Both the position numbers and the translations under genes were made by a program. The notes beneath the pieces are model-generated. The model did no database searches. It saw only the letters and a program-made list of their open reading frames with translations, and was not told the origin of the DNA. 43,790 nucleotides of DNA from Oscillospiraceae bacterium (GTDB lineage: Bacteria > Bacillota > Clostridia > UBA1212): positions 1 through 43,790 of the forward strand of contig SVJA01000015.1 of the NCBI GenBank assembly GCA_015069195.1, in the 5' to 3' direction. Positions 31,920 through 42,704 of this stretch are shown in pieces. How positions within the stretch are numbered: the first letter of the stretch is position 1; each line of letters begins with the position of its first letter.

Positions 31920-32708
31920 TTACTTTAATCTAAGAATATTTTGCCAACAATCATGATATCCCATGATTTGCATTACTTCAGTTATTGTTATTGTGTGTAA
32001 TTGTGTAAACTACTTCTAAACTTGATATCAAAGAATCTCTCATCGTGTGCGCATTTATTACGGGCCAAACTGCAAATATCCATATATTTATGTAATTCGT
32101 CATGCAAAACTCCGAATTTTTCGCTACAACAACCTTATCTTTGTCTTTCATGAGTCTATAAAAAGTTGTTATCTTGCCAAATGATAAAACATTAACCAAA
32201 ACCCACAATGGGATATACCCATATTCAGTCATATAATGTGTTACCACTTGATGATGCTTACTCATCTGACGTGCAAGTTCTTGTTGAATATCTCCTATAA
32301 GTTTTATTATATCTCCAATATTTTCTTCAGCACTTATGTTGTATTAAAATTTGCAATTGTAAGATAATTATCATGACCATATAGTCTTGAGAACTCGTGC
32401 GATAATACTGTTTTAAAAGAATTTTCAACCATGAGCAAATATTTTAAATAAATATGCCGAATCTCCCGATCAAATATATACAAAGCATAAACCTCATTAA
32501 AAGATGTGCCCTGCTTATACTTTTCATCTTCAGATGGACAATTATCAATAAGAAATAAATCTTTATATCCATTTATGATATTATAATAATTCTCTTTTTC
32601 AAGTATTCTAATCACAGAATTCTCATGTATACCGTCTTCTATTTGTATTCCTCGTTCGCTCAATATATCAATTAGCTGATGATAAGTTTTAAACTCTTTA
32701 TTTTTCAT
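31920..32708 (-). pseudogene. AbiF-like Abi_2-family HEPN toxin, broken by three frameshifts
   Basis: Pieces of one protein of about 260 residues lie in successive frames: MKNKEFKTYHQLIDILSERG...YNIINGYKDLF...YIFDREIRHIYLKYLLMVENSFK (to about 32335), then AEENIGDIIKLIG...YGYIPLWVLVNVLSFGKI (to about 32115), then SLARNKCAHDERFFDIKF (to about 31995), and finally EVMQIMGYHDCWQNILRLK. These are the Abi_2 landmarks in order. The third piece holds R-x4-H (RNKCAH), the HEPN RNase signature. Each break needs one added base to repair. GGGAG precedes the ATG at 32706-32708. Upstream is a short structured RNA (32723-32776). It appears inactivated; sequencing error is the alternative. Confidence 0.85.
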
Positions 32709-32722
32709 AATTTTCTCCCAAT

Positions 32723-32776
32723 AAAAAAGCCCCCGGGCCCGAAGGACACCGGAGGACAAACTGGCAAAACCACTAC
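32723..32776 (-). ncRNA. Candidate RNA antitoxin upstream of the AbiF-like gene
   Basis: About 54 nt between a sigma-A promoter (32783-32810) and a terminator. On the minus strand it reads TTTTGCCAGTTTGTCC, then a 7-bp stem CCTCCGG/CCGGGGG around a 12-base loop with CCTTCGG, then six T. The abi start is 15 bases further. Short promoter-terminator RNAs directly before Abi_2 genes are known as the abiF RNA motif and act as RNA antitoxins in studied cases. I match it by layout and remembered sequence style; a covariance search would be decisive. Confidence 0.75.
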
Positions 32777-32782
32777 AATCGT

Positions 32783-32810
32783 AGTATATCATGTAGTTTT
32801 CAAATGTCAA
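32783..32810 (-). promoter_or_regulatory. Promoter of the candidate RNA antitoxin
   Basis: TTGACA (32805-32810), 16 bases, TATACT (32783-32788) on the minus strand. Transcription would start near 32776, just upstream of the structured RNA. Confidence 0.8.
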
Positions 32811-32992
32811 CACATTCATACCACATGATAAAATAAAGTTTAACCTATACTATCCTATGCAGTTTCTTTCAAGCTATGCATACAGCACATTTACATTCTA
32901 TCATTTAGCATAATATTTACAAATAATTCCCGGGAAATAATTTGACATTTTTACAAGATTTTTCACATATAAATCCTGTGCGTCACATTACT
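32811..32992. other. AT-rich intergenic stretch without recognisable features
   Basis: No open frame with a ribosome site and no repeat is seen. It separates the Abi module from the hsdR terminator. A plus-strand TTGACA at 32942 has no matching -10 at proper spacing. Confidence 0.6.
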
Positions 32993-33066: not shown

Positions 33067-36000
33067 TTACGCAACATAGGCATTGCTATTTACAGTGTCA
33101 ATTACCTTTCGTATACCAAACCATATGTTCATATCTGAAAATACATCCACAATACTTCCTCTATCGGTAAAAGGGGATTCTTGAAGAACAGACAAATCTT
33201 TCATTACACCGTTATGGACAATGTATTCGACAATCTGATTGACAAAATATATTTGGCGACTATCAAGAGCTGCACTGTCAAGAAATTCAGAAAATGCATC
33301 TTTTGCGGCAGTCATATCAAGGCCTACTATTTCACGAACAAACTCACCGAGAGGCTTTTGACCGTACTCTGCCTCATAATCAGCCTTTGTACCGAGTTCA
33401 CTCCACAAAATTCTTTCAAGTTCTTCTATATCCGACTTTTCCAAAGGAATATTTGTTTTAAGCTTTTCTATAACTGCATTATCCTGATGTTTGCGGATGT
33501 AGAATTCCGCTTTAGCTTTGTAGTTTTTAAGTTCATCACTTTCGAGTTCAGATTCACGCCAATCAATCGCAAGAATATCATCTTCGAAGTTGGTAGTGTA
33601 CGTAATATCTTCACGAATAACATACTTCATTAAATCACGCAAATTTTCACGAATTTCTTCAAACTCGTTCATTCCGGCACGTTCAAGATAATCGGTATGC
33701 AAAATCTTGTTTATAAAATCAGCTTTCATCATTATTTCCGGAATATTCGCTACGCTCGCAACAGCACGAACCTTTTTGAGGAGTTCCGTTCTTGCACGAT
33801 TATACTTTTTACCTACAAGGTAAGCAAGTTCTATTCCATAAAGCAATGCATCAAAGCGCAATGCTTTGGGGTGGTCATCATCCGGTATAATGAGCGGAGC
33901 AAGTTCCTGTCGCATCATTAAAGTATCTCCATATGCGAGAATACGATAGCTTTCAGGATTTGAATACAACTCTACATATTTCAAATGCTGCTTAACGGCA
34001 AAATTGTCTTTGTTAAGCTCTTGTACCTTTCGAACCATATCATCAATCAATGACTGACGGAATTTCTGCAATTCAGGTGTCTGATAATCCAAATCCTGAA
34101 GTTTAAATGCAAGTTGTGCTTTCAAATAGAATATTGCACCTTGCAAAGCAATCAGATTCGCAGTAGGTTTACCCGGGTTAAGACGGAAGAACTCAAAATT
34201 TCCGCAGAAATCAAATATATAGAATTGCTCTTTATCTTTACCATCCAAGAGTCCGGGGCAAAGTCTTGTGCCACGGCCTATCATCTGCCAAAACTTTGCT
34301 TTACTCATAACCTTTTTAAAGAATACAAGATTCAATATTTCGGGCACATCTATACCGGTATCAAGCATATCAACTGATATTGCTATCTGCGGCAACTTTT
34401 TCGGATCGGAAAAATCATCAATTAAGCTCTGAGCATAATTGATTTTGTTATCAATTACTTCCGCATAACCTACAAGATGAGGAAACTCACGGTAAAAAAT
34501 TTCATGAATTTTCTCAGCATGCTTGTGATTTTTAGCAAAAATGATTGACTTGCCTATTTTGTTACCGTAATCCACGGACAGTCCCTCATTCATAAGGATA
34601 TGCAAAACTTCTCTGATGGTATCTTCATTGAAAACCCAATCATTGAGTGCCGAAGAACTTATTGCTTCAGGAAACTCACCATCTTTTGTAAAAGTTTCTT
34701 CGTATTCTTCTTTTTCATCGTCTGACAGATCATCATAAACTATACCCTGCTCAATAAATTTCAGACGTGTTTCAACAGACATGAAATCAACAAGATAGCC
34801 GTCAGTTACAGCCTGTGCAAGCTCATAACCGTATGTCGGCACACCCTTTTCAAGCTCGAAAATTTCATAGGTGTTTTTATCAATTTCATCTTTCGGTGTC
34901 GCTGTCAAACCGATAAGCGGTGCATCAAAATAATTGAAAATATCTCTATACTTGTTATATATGGAACGGTGTGCTTCGTCGCAAATAACTAAATCAAAAT
35001 GACCGCAGGTAAATATCTTGCCCTTATCATCGTTTACTTCATCTATGCAATGCATCATTGTCTGATAAGTAGAAAAGACACAATGCGCATTATAGTTATC
35101 TTTGTCCTCGCATAAATTTGTTACAGACAAATCCGGTAGCCAATTCGAAAAACTTTTCTTCGCCTGTGTAACCAAAGCATTACGATCTGCAAGAAAAAGA
35201 ATATTCTTTACCCAACCGTATTCCAACAAAATATCACAAAGTGCCATAACAGTTCTCGTCTTACCGGAACCTGTTGCCATAACAAGCAATGCTTTTCTTC
35301 TGTTTTTTGCGTCAAAACTATCACAGACAGCCTTTATAGCAGCCTCTTGATAATAACGACCGGCAATATCTTTATTTACAGCAGCATTTTTAAGACTGCG
35401 ACGCATAGACCTTAAATTAAACATCTTTTCAAGGTCACGTTTGGAATATATCGTTGCAACTTTTCTCTCGGGATACATATTGTCGCAGATGTGAGTATCA
35501 AAGCCGTTAGTGATAAACACAACAGGTCTTCTGCCGTACTTTTTCTCTAATAAATCAGCATAGAGTTTTGCCTGTTGTCTGCCGACAGATACATCCTTAC
35601 AAGTTTTCTTCGCTTCAATAACGGCAAGTGCTTTTCCGTCATCCCCAAACAAAACATAATCGGCATACCCAACTCCTGACTTGTTAGGCATACCTTTTAA
35701 CTCAAACTCATTTATCCAATCTTTGCCCAGAGTCCAACCGGCATCGGTGAGCATCGCATCAATATATATTTTTCTTGTCTTATACTCGGAAATATCCAAA
35801 GGCTTTGGAACATACAAATCTTTTTGGGCTGCTCGACGAGCCGTAAGTTCTGACTTTAAAGCTGCATTTTCCGCAATCAACTGCTGAAAATCCAATGCAA
35901 CCGAATTATCGATAAGCGTCTCCGTCTGCTTAGAAACAAGTGCCGGATTAAACTCCTGAGGCGTATATCCTTTGGAATAACAGCACGCAACAAAGTCCAT

Positions 36001-36372
36001 AAATATAAAGAGATTCTCAAGACAAAGCATAGCCTGCTCTTCGGTAATCTTTTTACCATTGTGTGCCGCATTATTTCCCATAATGCGAATCAATTTCATT
36101 CGTTCCCAAATGTCACTTCCGACAAGTTCGCGGAAATCCTCATTATCCATCAAGCAAATAAGTCTGTCATCGTACGGCAACTCGAGATCGCTGTCAACGG
36201 AATACATCCATTTAACAGCAAACTCCATGGCACGACGGCAATTTATAATACAGGTAGACATGTCAATATGCAACGCCTTTTCCGCCACGACTGCAACGCC
36301 TGAAAAGGTTTCAAATTGCTTGTCCTTTGTCAAAAAATCAAAGTTGGTCAAATTCTTTTTCTCTTCTTTCAT
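33067..36372 (-). CDS. hsdR: Type I restriction enzyme, R (motor/endonuclease) subunit
   Basis: A 1101-residue subunit that translocates and cuts unmodified DNA. Residues 25-130 are a DUF4145 domain (RIMGNNAAH, residues 96-104). The nuclease is PD-(D/E)XK: D238 in GYADYV and E253-A-K255. The SF2 helicase has Walker A ATGSGKT at 366-372, DEAH at 465-468, LTATPKDE, and the later MIGRGTRLCPG. The C-terminal domain binds the methylase complex. The start overlaps the PIN_8 gene by 35 bases and has a poor ribosome site, so translation is probably coupled. All key motifs are intact, so the enzyme should be active. Confidence 0.96.
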   Translation of the reverse strand: MKEEKKNLTNFDFLTKDKQFETFSGVAVVAEKALHIDMSTCIINCRRAMEFAVKWMYSVDSDLELPYDDRLICLMDNEDFRELVGSDIWERMKLIRIMGNNAAHNGKKITEEQAMLCLENLFIFMDFVACCYSKGYTPQEFNPALVSKQTETLIDNSVALDFQQLIAENAALKSELTARRAAQKDLYVPKPLDISEYKTRKIYIDAMLTDAGWTLGKDWINEFELKGMPNKSGVGYADYVLFGDDGKALAVIEAKKTCKDVSVGRQQAKLYADLLEKKYGRRPVVFITNGFDTHICDNMYPERKVATIYSKRDLEKMFNLRSMRRSLKNAAVNKDIAGRYYQEAAIKAVCDSFDAKNRRKALLVMATGSGKTRTVMALCDILLEYGWVKNILFLADRNALVTQAKKSFSNWLPDLSVTNLCEDKDNYNAHCVFSTYQTMMHCIDEVNDDKGKIFTCGHFDLVICDEAHRSIYNKYRDIFNYFDAPLIGLTATPKDEIDKNTYEIFELEKGVPTYGYELAQAVTDGYLVDFMSVETRLKFIEQGIVYDDLSDDEKEEYEETFTKDGEFPEAISSSALNDWVFNEDTIREVLHILMNEGLSVDYGNKIGKSIIFAKNHKHAEKIHEIFYREFPHLVGYAEVIDNKINYAQSLIDDFSDPKKLPQIAISVDMLDTGIDVPEILNLVFFKKVMSKAKFWQMIGRGTRLCPGLLDGKDKEQFYIFDFCGNFEFFRLNPGKPTANLIALQGAIFYLKAQLAFKLQDLDYQTPELQKFRQSLIDDMVRKVQELNKDNFAVKQHLKYVELYSNPESYRILAYGDTLMMRQELAPLIIPDDDHPKALRFDALLYGIELAYLVGKKYNRARTELLKKVRAVASVANIPEIMMKADFINKILHTDYLERAGMNEFEEIRENLRDLMKYVIREDITYTTNFEDDILAIDWRESELESDELKNYKAKAEFYIRKHQDNAVIEKLKTNIPLEKSDIEELERILWSELGTKADYEAEYGQKPLGEFVREIVGLDMTAAKDAFSEFLDSAALDSRQIYFVNQIVEYIVHNGVMKDLSVLQESPFTDRGSIVDVFSDMNIWFGIRKVIDTVNSNAYVA

Positions 36373-37595: not shown

Positions 37596-38153
37596 TTACT
37601 CTCCAAGCTTTAGAATAAGCGGTAACAATGTTAAACCGACATCAATACCTTTATCAGCAACCCATTTTATAATATCTTTCGCCATTTCCCATTTCTTGGT
37701 TTTTCTTTCGGTCGAATTTACGATCTGTTCCAATTCATCAATTTTGGCATTAATTTCACAAATTTCTTCATCTTTCAAAGATGACATATTTTCAACTATA
37801 TTTTTCGCCTTTGCAAAAGTAATAACACTTACGTCATTTTTATTCTCATTGGATATATTTGTTATTACATTTATCCCAACATTTTTTGTGTCATCAAATC
37901 TAAAATCTTCACAACAATTTAACGAATATGCTTTCAAAAAACCTTGTATAGTCCTAATGTACTCTATTGGTACAGTAGGGCGAATTTTAAACAATACTGC
38001 ATTCATTTCTATATCTGGAAAATTTTGTGATACTTTCGAGTATTTTCCAATCAATTCATTTAATAACGGCATTACGTCCAAACCGCGTTCTAAAAAAACA
38101 TCGCACCTTTTAATATCTTCTGTAACCATTTCAATAAATTCATTGCTTTTCAA
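37596..38153 (-). CDS. Unrecognised protein in the restriction locus
   Basis: A 185-residue acidic protein. The start is a TTG at 38151-38153 with AAAGGAG eight bases upstream, giving MKSNEFIEMVTEDIKRCDVF. The middle has a beta-rich part (VGINVITNISNENKNDVSVITFAKAK split over several strands) followed by a coiled-coil-like helix (IDELEQIVNSTERKTKKWEM) and a C-terminal amphipathic or membrane-associating helix (GIDVGLTLLPLILKLGE). No family is recognised. It lies between the 58-aa gene and the PIN_8 gene, co-directional, with gaps of 34 and 43 bases. Confidence 0.8.
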   Translation of the reverse strand: MKSNEFIEMVTEDIKRCDVFLERGLDVMPLLNELIGKYSKVSQNFPDIEMNAVLFKIRPTVPIEYIRTIQGFLKAYSLNCCEDFRFDDTKNVGINVITNISNENKNDVSVITFAKAKNIVENMSSLKDEEICEINAKIDELEQIVNSTERKTKKWEMAKDIIKWVADKGIDVGLTLLPLILKLGE

Positions 38154-38187
38154 AATATCATCTCCTTTGATTTTATTTGAAATATTG

Positions 38188-38364
38188 TTATACCCTTTGG
38201 AATAAACCATATATTGCTTTATATTGCATAAACTCATAAGCTAGTTTCTGTTGTTCGTATGGGGACAATAATTGAATGGCTTTATCTGTTTCAAGCAATA
38301 ATTTTTTTGCTTTTTCATAATTATCTTTTGGTTCTGCATCTATATTTAATTCAAATTTTCTCAT
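38188..38364 (-). CDS. Small 58-residue protein in the restriction locus
   Basis: The ATG at 38362-38364 has AGAAGGTG 5-6 bases upstream and the frame ends at TAA 38188-38190. The protein starts MRKFELNIDAEPKDNYEKAK and is charged and helical, with AKKLLLETDKAIQLLSPYEQ in the middle and a Tyr-rich end (AYEFMQYKAIYGLF). It is probably a real gene because of the ribosome site, the extended -10 promoter at 38387-38395, and the fit between its neighbours. Function unknown; an antitoxin or adaptor for the 185-aa protein is only a guess. Confidence 0.7.
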   Translation of the reverse strand: MRKFELNIDAEPKDNYEKAKKLLLETDKAIQLLSPYEQQKLAYEFMQYKAIYGLFQRV

Positions 38365-38386
38365 TTTTTCACCTTCTTTGTTTTCT

Positions 38387-38395
38387 ATTATACCA
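38387..38395 (-). promoter_or_regulatory. Internal extended -10 promoter
   Basis: TGGTATAAT on the minus strand, 23 bases before the start of the 58-aa gene; no good -35 box is seen, as is usual for extended -10 promoters. It would allow the four downstream genes, including hsdR, to be transcribed apart from hsdM and hsdS. Confidence 0.55.
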
Positions 38396-38464: not shown

Positions 38465-39559
38465 TCACCCAAAATATTTCTGCATCAATGATTTCTTTAA
38501 TATTTCAAGTTTTTCCAGACTTTGTTTAACTACCAATTTTGATTTATCGACCTGTTCGACGAAGGCTGCAAACTGCTTTTGAACTTCCATTGGTGCCAAA
38601 TTGATGGGCATTGCTTTTACATATGAAACTGCCGCAATGTTTTGAATACCACTACCCTTAGTTTCCAAGTTGCCGATAGTTTGCTTCATGTAAGTCAAAA
38701 ATACAATAGGAAGTATTTTTTCGTTAAGAGTAAATTTGCAGAGCGCTTGATTTATCAGACCTTTTTCGCAACCCTCTGGCAACTGATACAATTCGCCCAT
38801 TGTACCAGAACAACTCATTAGAATATCACCTGCAACACACTCAAATCTTCGCAGTTCATCAAACTTTTCAGCCGTAACATAATAAGTTCCGATAGTCGCT
38901 GATTTTTGGATAGCATGTTTTTGCTCATAAACCTTATATGTTGTTTCGTTGGGTTCAACGAAGAACTCTTTTTTGAGAGCGCTTCCAAAAGGTCCCCTCA
39001 CAATCGAAGAACACACTTCCCCAACTGTTACTTTTTCCCATCCAAAAGGATTGGTTTCAGGGTCGCCAAAGAGTTCGACAAATCGGGATTTGACGAGTTC
39101 ATCAAGTTTTATAAGTTGTTGCCTTTTTGCATCAATTAAAGTGTCTAATCCGTTAAAAATCTTTGTGATTTCTTTTTGCACTCCAACATCGCTTATATTG
39201 AATTCAGCTTTGCTGTAATCTTTAAAATATATGTGCGGTATAGTCGCACCGGTTTGATATTTTGCCAAATTCATATATTCCATTGCATAGGCTAAATATT
39301 CAAGCTCAACATCTTCATTGGGTATTATATATTGTAAAGTACCAATAACTGAAGAATACGCAGGCAGTTTTAATACTCTACCTACACCCGCTCCATCTTT
39401 AACAACAGCTATATAAGGTTTATCTTGCACATAAAAATCCACACATTTTATCAATCCGCTTGCTCCGTATATTGGATAAATACCATCTCTTTTTTCTAAA
39501 TCCGATTGTTTTATATTTGATGAAGCATTAGTACAGTAATCACCAAGTCTCGCCATCAT
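38465..39559 (-). CDS. hsdS: Type I restriction enzyme specificity subunit
   Basis: A 364-residue subunit that recognises the bipartite DNA target. Two target-recognition domains are seen: TRD1 about residues 1-125 (ARLGDYCTNAS, PIYGASGLI, GATIPHIYFKDY) and TRD2 about 175-325 (WEKVTVGEVCSSIVRGPFGS, GSGIQNIAAVSYVKAM). They are separated by the conserved helical spacer EITKIFNGLDTLIDAKRQQL and closed by a second helix at the C-terminus. It starts at ATG-ATG overlapping the previous stop. It appears complete. Target sequence not predictable by eye. Confidence 0.94.
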   Translation of the reverse strand: MMARLGDYCTNASSNIKQSDLEKRDGIYPIYGASGLIKCVDFYVQDKPYIAVVKDGAGVGRVLKLPAYSSVIGTLQYIIPNEDVELEYLAYAMEYMNLAKYQTGATIPHIYFKDYSKAEFNISDVGVQKEITKIFNGLDTLIDAKRQQLIKLDELVKSRFVELFGDPETNPFGWEKVTVGEVCSSIVRGPFGSALKKEFFVEPNETTYKVYEQKHAIQKSATIGTYYVTAEKFDELRRFECVAGDILMSCSGTMGELYQLPEGCEKGLINQALCKFTLNEKILPIVFLTYMKQTIGNLETKGSGIQNIAAVSYVKAMPINLAPMEVQKQFAAFVEQVDKSKLVVKQSLEKLEILKKSLMQKYFG

Positions 39560-40116
39560 ACCACCCCCTTATAAAGTTCTATAATTGCAACTATAAGTGC
39601 AAATATTCCTATCAACGAAGAAAACAATGTAACTATATAATTCTTATCCTTTTCATATTTTATTTCGTTTGCAACTGCTCGAAATACTAATGAAAAAGAT
39701 ATAGCAACAAATGAAAAAACGAGAAATGTAACAATCGCTAAAATATTATCGATAATATTGGCACCTGACCATTCAAATGTTGTAAAAGAATGATATATAG
39801 GACTAATAAACAAAATCAAAAATAGAACTGTACAACATATCGCTAAACCATTCATAATAATTGCCATAAAGCTTGATAAGGCAATTACTGTTGAACTATT
39901 TGTCAAAGGTTCGCCTTTCAAAACTTTACATAAGTTACACCAAAAACTATTCTTATTAGTCGCTGTTGTCTGTTCACTTTTATCAACACTTTTCTCCTGT
40001 GCCTTCACTATTGCTTCCGCCAATTTATCATAATCAATCTCCATATTCACAGAAGCAATATTATTTATTATTTGAGGTCTATTACTATCCCTATTACTTC
40101 CTTTTCTTCTAGCCAT
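39556..40116 (-). CDS. Membrane protein embedded between hsdM and hsdS
   Basis: A 186-residue protein: a polar N-terminus of about 70 residues, then four hydrophobic segments at about 76-105 (two close helices), 120-145 and 163-182. AGGAG lies 8 bases before ATG, and its stop overlaps the hsdS start by 4 bases, so it is an integral part of the operon. I recognise no family. A membrane protein within a type I locus is unusual and could be an effector or anchor. Confidence 0.82.
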   Translation of the reverse strand: MARRKGSNRDSNRPQIINNIASVNMEIDYDKLAEAIVKAQEKSVDKSEQTTATNKNSFWCNLCKVLKGEPLTNSSTVIALSSFMAIIMNGLAICCTVLFLILFISPIYHSFTTFEWSGANIIDNILAIVTFLVFSFVAISFSLVFRAVANEIKYEKDKNYIVTLFSSLIGIFALIVAIIELYKGVV

Positions 40117-40143: not shown

Positions 40144-41646
40144 TCATCCATTCAACATCTCTTCAAGTTCTGCAAGTCCCGCAGTTATCTTCATCTCAAG
40201 TTCGTGTAAATCTGTCATAATTTCAAGCGTTGACGGATACTCAACCGCCTCATATACCGTCTTCTTGTACTTATTTATAGACAAATCATAATCATTATCT
40301 ACAATCTCTGATTTAGGCACAAAGAAGCTCTGCTCCGTTCTTTCCCGGTCTTTTTCGCCGTCAAGGTTACGGAATCTTTCGATGATGTCAGGAATATCAT
40401 TGTCCGATACCGGCGAACGTTTATCATCAAGAGAGAATCCGTCTGCTTTCATATCGTAGAACCAAACATTGTCCGTTCCGCCGTGCTCCGTCTTTGTAAA
40501 GATAAGTATACCGGTGGAGACTCCGGCGTATGGTTTGAATACACCGGAAGGCATCGAGATAACCGCTTCTAATCGGTTATTTTCGATAATTTCTTTGCGG
40601 ATAGCCTTATGCGCTGTCGATGAACCAAACAGAACACCATCAGGAACGATACAAGCACATCTACCGCCTGTATGAAGCATACGAAGGAAAAGTGCAAGAA
40701 AAAGAAGCTCTGTCTTTTTAGTCTTACATACTTTAAGCAAGTCAGCAGACACCGTATCATAGTCAAGACTTCCTTTGAACGGCGGATTTGCCAGAATAAG
40801 TGAATACTTGTCTCTGTCACCGTTTTGGTCTGATAAACTGTCACGATATTCTATAAACGGACTTTCAACACCGTGAGTCATCATATTCATCGCACCGATA
40901 CGAAGCATCGTTCTGTCCATATCGTAGCCGTAGAACATGCTGTTCATATAGTGTTCTTTTCGCTGCTTATTGTAGAAAATATCCTCTTTGTGATTTTCTT
41001 TGAGATACTCGCCTGCTGATACAAGGAATCCTGATGTACCGCAAGCAGGATCACATATAGTGTCAGTCGGTTTCGGCTGCATAAGCTCTACCATCATGCG
41101 TATTATGTGTCGAGGTGTTCGGAACTGTCCGTTGAGACCCGACTGCGCTATTTTGTTCAATAGATATTCGTAAACATCACCGCGTACATCCTTGCTGTCT
41201 GACTTTGACATAATGTAATATATATCATCAAGTGCATCAACGACTTTTGACAACAACAACGGTGTCGGCAACTTAAAAATCGCATCATCCATATACTTTG
41301 AATATCCGCTGTCCTTGTTGCTGTCAAGGTTCTTTATAAAAGGGAAAACCCATTCCTGCATAAGTGAATACATCTGACCTGCCGGCAAATCACGGAAGCT
41401 TTTCCACTTCAAACGCTCTCCGTCAATTGTTCTGTCTCCGACAACAACCTGCTCCGCAAATAAGCTTTTAAAAGGTAGACCGAGCATCGCACTCTCTTTG
41501 GCACGAGTTTCATCCGAATCAGACAAATCGCGTATAAACATCATATATGTTATCTGCTCAATAACATCCAACGGATTTACCAATCCACCTGCCGCAAAAG
41601 CATCCCACAAGCTGTCAATTTTGTTCTTCAATTCTCCTGTTATCAT
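40144..41646 (-). CDS. hsdM: Type I restriction enzyme methylase subunit
   Basis: A 500-residue N6-adenine methyltransferase subunit. It has an N-terminal HsdM_N domain (about 5-140), the SAM-binding motif DPACGTSGFL at 199-208, the catalytic NPPF at 287-290, and GQFRTPRHIIRMMVE just before the SAM site. It methylates the recognition site with HsdS and forms the restriction complex with HsdR. The start ATG overlaps the Fic stop by one base (TAATG), so translation is coupled. All catalytic motifs are intact. Confidence 0.97.
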   Translation of the reverse strand: MITGELKNKIDSLWDAFAAGGLVNPLDVIEQITYMMFIRDLSDSDETRAKESAMLGLPFKSLFAEQVVVGDRTIDGERLKWKSFRDLPAGQMYSLMQEWVFPFIKNLDSNKDSGYSKYMDDAIFKLPTPLLLSKVVDALDDIYYIMSKSDSKDVRGDVYEYLLNKIAQSGLNGQFRTPRHIIRMMVELMQPKPTDTICDPACGTSGFLVSAGEYLKENHKEDIFYNKQRKEHYMNSMFYGYDMDRTMLRIGAMNMMTHGVESPFIEYRDSLSDQNGDRDKYSLILANPPFKGSLDYDTVSADLLKVCKTKKTELLFLALFLRMLHTGGRCACIVPDGVLFGSSTAHKAIRKEIIENNRLEAVISMPSGVFKPYAGVSTGILIFTKTEHGGTDNVWFYDMKADGFSLDDKRSPVSDNDIPDIIERFRNLDGEKDRERTEQSFFVPKSEIVDNDYDLSINKYKKTVYEAVEYPSTLEIMTDLHELEMKITAGLAELEEMLNG

Positions 41647-42704
41647 TATTCATTCTCCCTGTTCCAAGTATATGTTGTATATCTTCCGCCGCCGTTTTTT
41701 ATGATCTCGCCTGTTTGCAACAACTCTTTAAGAGTTCTCTGCACAGTTACCTGACTTATATCAGGACATCTCTCCATTATTTCGGTTTTGGTTATAGTTC
41801 CTAATGTTTCTTTTATTATTTCACGTATTTTATCCGGCTTTGACAATCCGTTTGAAGCCAATGTGCGTACTCGTGTAGAAAAATCGCGATACGCAGACAA
41901 TATAACGCCGAGTATATATTTTACGAAAAAGCTATAATCATTTTCGCCTTCGTGCCACCCTGCCGAGCTGTTTTGAAGAGCTTCGTAATAAGTATCCTTT
42001 GTGTTTTCTATAACCTTTTCTATACTTATATATTTCCCTACTATATAGCCCTCTCTGTACAGCAACAATAACGTCAGCAACCTGCTCATCCTGCCGTTTC
42101 CGTCATTAAACGGATGTATACTCAAAAAGTCCAAAATAAACATCGGTATAATAAGCAAAGGATCTACATTTTCGCTATGTAGAGCTTCATCAAATGCTGT
42201 ACATATTTGTTTTATCGCTTCAGGCGTTTCCCAAGCCGACAAAGGCATAAATCGCACTGATTTATTTCCATCGGCATCTACCTCGGATATGATATTGTCC
42301 GAAGTTTTGTATATACCTGCATAACCCTTTCCGCTGAACCTATACAAATCCTTGTGCATTTGTAATATTATCGTTGGTTTCACCGGCATAAAATCATAAC
42401 TCTCATGAATTGTTCCCAAAACATCACGATAACCGGCAATTTCTTGTTCGTCACGGTTTTGCGGAATTGTTTTGTTAATAACGATCTTTTTCAACCGTTC
42501 TTCCGAGGTGTAAATACCCTCAATTTTGTTCGAAGCTTCTGTGCTTTGTATTTTTGCTATTTCAAGTAGTTGAGTCAATGTGTCGTGTTGAGCTTCTACA
42601 AATAAATTCTGCTCGCCTCTGTACTCGTGAATCTGCATAAGCATTGCAAATATTTCAGGAGTCAATAAGGCTTGCCATTTTTTTGCATAATCGAACTCTC
42701 TCAT
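41646..42704 (-). CDS. Fic-domain AMPylase family protein with winged-helix C-terminus
   Basis: A 352-residue protein. The Fic motif HPFNDGNGRMSR begins at His 197. An N-terminal inhibitory helix motif of the form (S/T)xxxE(G/N) is present as S58-N-K-I-E62-G63 and would clamp the ATP pocket. The C-terminal 80 residues look like a winged helix (TKTEIMERCPDISQVTVQRT, LLQTGEIIKNGGGRY). Fic proteins transfer AMP or related groups to proteins. It is the first gene of the restriction operon and probably autoregulates through the repeat array at its promoter. GGAG precedes ATG. Confidence 0.93.
   Translation of the reverse strand: MREFDYAKKWQALLTPEIFAMLMQIHEYRGEQNLFVEAQHDTLTQLLEIAKIQSTEASNKIEGIYTSEERLKKIVINKTIPQNRDEQEIAGYRDVLGTIHESYDFMPVKPTIILQMHKDLYRFSGKGYAGIYKTSDNIISEVDADGNKSVRFMPLSAWETPEAIKQICTAFDEALHSENVDPLLIIPMFILDFLSIHPFNDGNGRMSRLLTLLLLYREGYIVGKYISIEKVIENTKDTYYEALQNSSAGWHEGENDYSFFVKYILGVILSAYRDFSTRVRTLASNGLSKPDKIREIIKETLGTITKTEIMERCPDISQVTVQRTLKELLQTGEIIKNGGGRYTTYTWNRENE

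Follow-up and report, generated by a model that had tools for sequence, protein, structure and literature searches.

An embedded cargo slot in type I restriction operons is already known (PMC12255303, PMC11411939, PMC12707154). In enteropathogenic E. coli, the account in PMC12255303 places DarTG2 between hsdS and hsdR in an RptR island headed by a small helical repressor gene, and gives RptR as a 79-aa protein that binds TAGCTA-type sites. Vibrio pathogenicity island 2 has a type I operon that harbours TgvAB, whose anti-phage activity has been tested (PMC11411939). PrrC, an RNA-cutting effector encoded in ecoprrI, is described as being kept inactive by the restriction enzyme until a phage blocks that enzyme and so sets PrrC free (PMC12707154, PMC2610378). 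The rlo (restriction-linked orf) genes are found in the hsd loci of Campylobacter, with RloF situated between hsdR and hsdS (PMC2610378, PMC11411939).

We analysed a stretch of 43,790 nucleotides from an Oscillospiraceae bacterium (the window), whose minus strand carries a type I restriction operon in the order Fic, hsdM, a 186-aa gene, hsdS, a 58-aa gene, a 185-aa gene, PIN_8 and hsdR (Table 1). The genes between hsdS and hsdR are embedded cargo, and this cargo differs between related operons. The likeness to the DarTG2/RptR island as described in PMC12255303 is that toxin-type defence genes occupy the same gap of the type I operon, although the cargo and the bacteria are different. By that description RptR is encoded at the operon head, whereas the small gene of the window lies inside the gap. 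TgvAB resembles our locus in that two genes of no assigned function interrupted a type I operon, and these proved to be a defence system; as characterized in PMC11411939 they form a GmrSD-like type IV restriction pair, in contrast to the window genes, in which no such domain appears. PrrC and the window share a nuclease gene inside a type I locus, in our case that of a predicted PIN_8 nuclease, but PrrC is described as an ABC-ATPase anticodon nuclease (PMC12707154, PMC2610378). PrrC-type ATPase/anticodon nuclease sequence is absent from the 404-aa PIN protein, in which only PIN domains pass the cut-off of the Pfam scan. The rlo genes, too, are insertions into type I loci and take their name from this position, but RloC is reported as a Rad50-like tRNase and RloF as a DUF262 protein (PMC2610378, PMC11411939), neither of which appeared in the Pfam scan of the window cargo.

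Table 1. Features of the type I restriction operon and its embedded genes in the window.
Feature	Position	Strand	Remark
hsdR (DUF4145 + ResIII + EcoEI_R_C)	33067..36372	-	distal slot border; Pfam scan
PIN_8 domain nuclease gene (predicted), 404 aa	36338..37552	-	PF18476 E 1.6e-56
185-aa gene, TTG start; predicted N-terminal helical domain (variable), Asn-rich linker, C-terminal helical domain (conserved) with hydrophobic tail	37596..38153	-	
58-aa gene, ATG start; predicted small helical protein, restriction-linked small protein family	38188..38364	-	
Extended -10 element TGGTATAAT, cargo entry	38387..38395	-	same motif TGATATAAT in L052 leader
hsdS	38465..39559	-	proximal slot border; PF01420 E 6.2e-20
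186-aa membrane-type gene, second cargo position (hsdM-hsdS interval)	39556..40116	-	type read from sequence
hsdM	40144..41646	-	PF02384 E 3.4e-66
Fic-family gene upstream of hsdM	41646..42704	-	PF02661 E 2.7e-13

The cargo genes of the window have a GC content of 27-30%, versus 36-42% in hsdS, hsdR and hsdM. PIN_8 is matched by the 404-aa protein at 192.3 bits against a gathering cut-off of 26.1, and relatives at E <=1e-10 are found in five other genomes of the 391 examined from the class. The end of the PIN gene overlaps the start of hsdR by 35 nt, or by 14 nt if hsdR begins at the TTG equivalent to its start in locus L008, which suggests that the nuclease and the restriction subunit may be co-translated. 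At the other end of the operon, a Fic-family gene likewise lies upstream of hsdM in L008, L050, L051, L053, L055 and L056, and L056 has a relative of the 186-aa gene (E 2e-17) in the equivalent position. The hsdM-hsdS interval is a second variable site. It is occupied by the 186-aa gene or its relative in the window and L056, by RhuM in L008 and L058, and by three genes in L050. Behind hsdR, an Abi_2/AbiD-like protein is encoded at 32334-32819; it is probably truncated, since the match covers only the first 82 of the 184 Pfam profile positions.

When the HsdR of the window was used to search 391 genomes of the class, 39 matched at E 1e-100 or better, its own included. Loci were taken from 35 of the 38 other HsdR-positive genomes; of the remaining three, G325 is represented by L008, while G106 and G202 were omitted with their matches at contig starts. 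With L008 and L016, the latter included because of its 185-aa family member, this made 37 loci beside the window. Counting gaps needed an hsdS of >300 aa and an hsdR of >600 aa, and 11 of the 37 loci were dropped with one of these genes incomplete or off the contig, leaving 26, or 27 with the window. L068 was kept though its hsdR is cut at 646 aa, and L065 was scored as having an empty gap despite a recombinase-like gene between its two hsdS genes. In the close clade, which comprises the window and loci whose HsdR is 61-73% identical to that of the window, the gap was at least 501 bp in 13 of 13 loci. For the distant group (HsdR 37-47% identical) this was so in 5 of 14, or 4 of 13 without L016, and the gap was 101 bp or less in 9 of 14. 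The contrast between the two groups (Fisher p 0.0006) serves as a guide only, since the loci are related and the grouping was made post hoc.

Known defence or toxin families occupy the same gap in related operons. The slot holds AbiGi/AbiGii in L061, RelB/YafQ in L054, a nucleotidyltransferase with a 144-aa neighbour in L064, AAA_21 with a recombinase-like gene in L073, a CAP12/PCTIR TIR protein with DUF6680 in L008 and a DUF6680 relative in L058. AbiH (L076) and DUF4238 (L059) are encoded upstream of hsdR in loci that lack a complete hsdS on the contig. The remaining slot cargo either lacks a Pfam match or shows no evident tie to defence, for example a GNAT acetyltransferase in L060. The earlier note had placed the 58-aa and 185-aa genes in a defence setting, and their position between hsdS and hsdR, in a slot that often holds such families, supports this.

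Several further proteins recur among the slots. Small proteins of 76 and 77 aa in L050 (4693-4923) and L068 (1630-1863) look alike by eye, with MFNPQYV near the start and a QHQQ-AF motif. A 415-421-aa protein, also alike by eye, is found in L054, L055, L056 and L070, and its L054 member was matched by neither Pfam nor PADLOC at E 0.01. L008 (8602-9093) and L052 (3903-4385) have a TM163-like protein in common, their slots otherwise differing in cargo. In L065 and L073 hsdS genes or pieces flank a gene that we read from its ORF as tyrosine-recombinase-like, an arrangement known from hsdS-inverting loci.

The length of its ORF is no proof of the 58-aa gene, because 53 ORFs of at least 50 aa overlap the 13.8-kb stretch around it. 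It does have a ribosome site (AAAGAAGGTG), and its conservation across genomes confirms that it is a real gene, as the earlier note had proposed. Relatives are encoded in three other genomes of the class, G131 (L052, 64 aa from its ATG), G168 (L014/L092, 65 aa) and G224 (L091, 63 aa). A less certain relative, 68 aa long, is found in L102, a faecal contig filed as phage (MT839692.1). In a set of 4738 stop-to-stop frames drawn from 16 loci, the window protein alone matches L052 and L091 at E 1.1e-7, and a 3-row profile retrieves the fourth member, from G224, which was outside its training rows, at E 8.5e-21. Across 321 genomes the profile gave seven with rows at E <=0.01, of which four were accepted, its own genome included; the three discarded rows, at E 0.006-0.008, were short segments within long ORFs. 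Pairwise comparison of the four members shows, in all six pairs, the most differences at codon position 3 and the fewest at position 2. The four closer members conserve E-P-x-D-x-Y-x-K-A, one leucine and L-A-x-E. A 65-aa ORF on a viral contig (L103) was left out of the family as uncertain: it reaches E 9.2e-7 with the 3-row profile and 0.014 with the window protein alone, and covers only query residues 10-44. A model of the L052 member predicts a two-helix hairpin with helices at 15-31 and 35-61 (mean pLDDT 76, pTM 0.43). The description of the 58-aa protein as charged is apt for its composition but not for its net charge, which is only +1. A PDB sequence search with the family profile gave weak NEDD8 rows only. 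The L052 relative had no match in plasmids, phages or viral contigs, and the L091 relative none in plasmids or viral contigs.

An extended -10 promoter had also been proposed for the 58-aa gene, and the leader does contain TGGTATAAT at 38387-38395, followed after 22 bases by the ATG. TGGTATAAT is not accompanied by a good -35 at a spacing of 16-18 nt, and a consensus scan missed the promoter. A match to TGNTATAAT is weak evidence by itself, because the window contains 5 where 3.2 are expected by chance, while the expectation for the 100-base leader of the 58-aa gene is 0.007. The same extended -10 motif recurs 24 bases before the 58-aa relative in L052. Among the 27 hsdS-hsdR gaps, window counted, TGNTATAAT is found on the coding strand in only two, those of the window and L052, and L052 is the only other of these gaps to hold a 58-aa relative, giving an association of motif and gene with p 0.003 that rests on two loci. 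A promoter of its own is supported for the 58-aa gene of the window. It is not a family-wide feature, since the relative in L091 is preceded by only 28 bases, without the extended -10 motif, and that in L014 by TATAAT without the TG.

The 185-aa frame begins at a TTG at 38153, preceded by AAAGGAGATGATATT-TTG, and ends with the stop at 37596. An alternative ATG upstream (38237) would give 213 aa and overlap the 58-aa gene, but it is the less likely start, and the TTG of the earlier note is favored, because a relative with 43% identity begins at the residue that matches the TTG. This relative is the full-length, 184-aa protein of L008, in genome G325 (Oscillospiraceae MAG SIG445). Remoter relatives are encoded in L009, L010, L011, L012 and L016, each matching the L008 protein (phmmer) at E 2.6e-11 or better; L017 was merged with L016, the two being 96.8% identical in DNA over 3.77 kb. 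On this conservation the 185-aa gene too is confirmed as real. Matches to its protein occur in 5 of the 391 genomes of the class, its own included, where it is single-copy (the genome is 95.75% complete). The 58-aa and 185-aa families are both rare.

The 58-aa and 185-aa proteins had no convincing match in Pfam, NCBIfam, PADLOC or PHROGs, and a search of the PDB by sequence gave no convincing row for either. Weak rows for the 213-aa form (Circo_capsid at 0.25, CdsZ at 0.0072, phrog_34815 at 0.0013 and others) were rejected as chance, with low scores and partial matches. The 185-aa protein and its L008 relative had no match in plasmids or phages, and 185-aa queries had none in viral contigs. 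A model built from 8 rows is of moderate quality (mean pLDDT 72, pTM 0.41), with more confidence in the C-terminal part. It predicts helices at 3-23, 27-39, 52-57 and 60-79 in the N-terminal part, a low-confidence region at 81-109, and C-terminal helices at 113-121, 128-145, 151-168 and 170-184. No solved fold stood out: the best Foldseek E was 1.6, and the best Z in a fold comparison was 6.9 over 72 residues (rmsd 3.3), a value common for helical models according to the tool. Between the window and L008 proteins the C-terminal domain is identical at 50 of 75 positions and the N-terminal domain at 18 of 79. A variable N-terminal domain with a constant C-terminal domain fits a sensor joined to an effector or adaptor, and the 185-aa protein may be a two-part protein of this kind. 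A doubled N-terminal domain in L016 is doubtful, the 119-aa ORF there matching the L008 protein only at E 0.0014. The last 16 residues of the 185-aa protein are hydrophobic and mildly amphipathic, as had been claimed. Membrane activity of this tail, or a membrane toxin, is possible but weakly supported, the best 19-residue hydropathy being 1.27, which is below the usual transmembrane cut-off of 1.6.

In the window the 58-aa and 185-aa genes are 34 bp apart. Co-occurrence elsewhere was tested by profile searches of all stop-to-stop frames of at least 25 aa, in which a 58-aa relative was found in none of the six other 185-family loci (L008, L009, L010, L011, L012 and L016) and a 185-aa relative in none of the four other 58-family loci (L052, L014/L092, L091 and L102). 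A profile search of ORFs of at least 40 aa in the 37 loci found the 185-aa family only in L008 and L016 and the 58-aa family only in L052. A 58-aa gene would not fit in L008 or L016, because hsdS and the 185-aa relative are separated by only 8 bases in the former and 2 in the latter.

The 58-aa gene directly precedes different genes in different loci: the 185-aa and PIN genes in the window, a TM163-like gene 4 bases later in L052, and in L091, 27 bases later, a HipA-like kinase that matches the PADLOC candidate PDC-M03A. Beyond the kinase gene lies a broken remnant of the hsdR N-terminus (48% over 64 residues, E 3e-17), and no hsdM, hsdS or Fic match was found within the 16 kb of this locus. 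In L014 the relative lies beside a serine recombinase at the contig end, which cuts the next gene. In L102 its start coincides with the final base of a ResIII helicase ORF, itself after a Fic gene. The family thus adjoins restriction-type genes in four of five loci, window included, with L014 as the exception, or in four of six if L103 is admitted. The 185-aa family adjoins restriction genes in four of seven distinct loci, namely the window, L008, L016 and L012 (an Eco57I/ResIII protein). Its link to restriction is not obligatory, because relatives are also found among apparently ordinary genes in L010 and L011 and in an apparent prophage in L009, as read from the ORFs. Across the loci searched, the two genes do not move together.

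We consider it probable that the 58-aa and 185-aa genes are independent, exchangeable modules which, with the PIN_8 nuclease, make up defence cargo of the hsdS-hsdR gap. This reading is based on families that are conserved yet separate elsewhere, on a gap whose content changes and frequently includes known toxin or abortive-infection genes, and on the overlap of the PIN gene with hsdR. That the cassette is a cargo module is very likely, and a role in defence is rather likely. The cassette would form a second line of defence expressed together with the restriction enzyme, perhaps responding to the state of that enzyme, as PrrC does with EcoprrI. The PIN protein is likely an RNase and would serve as the RNA-cutting effector. 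The variable N-terminal domain of the 185-aa protein might recognise a signal, while its conserved C-terminal domain and hydrophobic tail might bind a partner or the membrane. The 58-aa hairpin would be made first, from its own promoter, and would tune or hold a neighbouring protein. A guard-type scheme with these roles, drawn by analogy, is a tentative and rather doubtful proposal. Three PIN_8 loci that we examined (L099, L100 and L101) hold neither a 58-aa nor a 185-aa relative, so that a joint machine of the three proteins finds no support there, and TgvAB, as presented in PMC11411939, sets a precedent for embedded genes that complement restriction rather than act under guard.

The 185-aa protein could instead be a single-gene effector, its C-terminal domain acting and its N-terminal domain sensing, with the PIN and 58-aa genes as unrelated neighbours. 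A relative is the only cargo in the slot of L016 and stands alone in L010 and L011, and the C-terminal domain is conserved while the N-terminal domains diverge, all of which agrees with this view. The tight operon with PIN and hsdR and the lack of a known effector fold in the 185-aa protein count against it, and we regard it as possible but somewhat unlikely. Another proposal, which we consider unlikely, takes its cue from the changing downstream neighbours of the 58-aa gene: this family may be a restriction-linked, partner-swapping micro-regulator or antidote, keeping the effector of the slot in check until restriction fails.

If the 185-aa protein were an accessory of the restriction enzyme rather than a defence effector, for example a regulator that binds HsdR, its relative in L016, directly between hsdS and hsdR with no other cargo, would be well placed, as would the occupation of the same gap in the window and L008. 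This seems quite improbable for a family that is missing from 35 of the 37 other loci and is present away from hsd genes. The genes could also be decaying passengers of a mobile element without a present function, as the low GC of the cargo, the serine recombinase next to the 58-aa relative in L014, and broken ORFs in L016 and L091 might suggest, but the frames of the window are intact, have good ribosome sites and show codon patterns of the kind seen in proteins under selection, and we hold this to be very unlikely. The layout that had led the earlier note to a dedicated toxin-antitoxin pair, with the 185-aa protein as a membrane-acting toxin and the 58-aa protein as its antidote (34-bp spacing, a small upstream gene, its own promoter, a hydrophobic tail), is outweighed by the separation of the two families in every other locus searched, the tight spacing in L008 and L016 that leaves no place for the 58-aa gene, the low hydropathy of the tail and the failure of Pfam, PADLOC, NCBIfam and PHROGs to give a convincing match to a toxin or antitoxin family, and we reject this pairing as highly improbable.

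The useful parts of this analysis are the near-constant cargo load of the hsdS-hsdR gap in one clade and the two cargo families, unnamed in Pfam, NCBIfam, PADLOC and PHROGs, with the reservation that the literature cannot be searched by sequence. If the 58-aa and 185-aa genes are indeed exchangeable modules of this gap, neighbours in the slot should not be counted as pairs without a check of their co-occurrence. The restriction operons of the close clade would then be cassettes in which the place between hsdS and hsdR is almost always taken by an additional gene that varies from operon to operon and in many cases belongs to a known defence or toxin family. The hsdS-hsdR gap would be an easily located site in which to seek phage-defence genes that have yet to be recognised.
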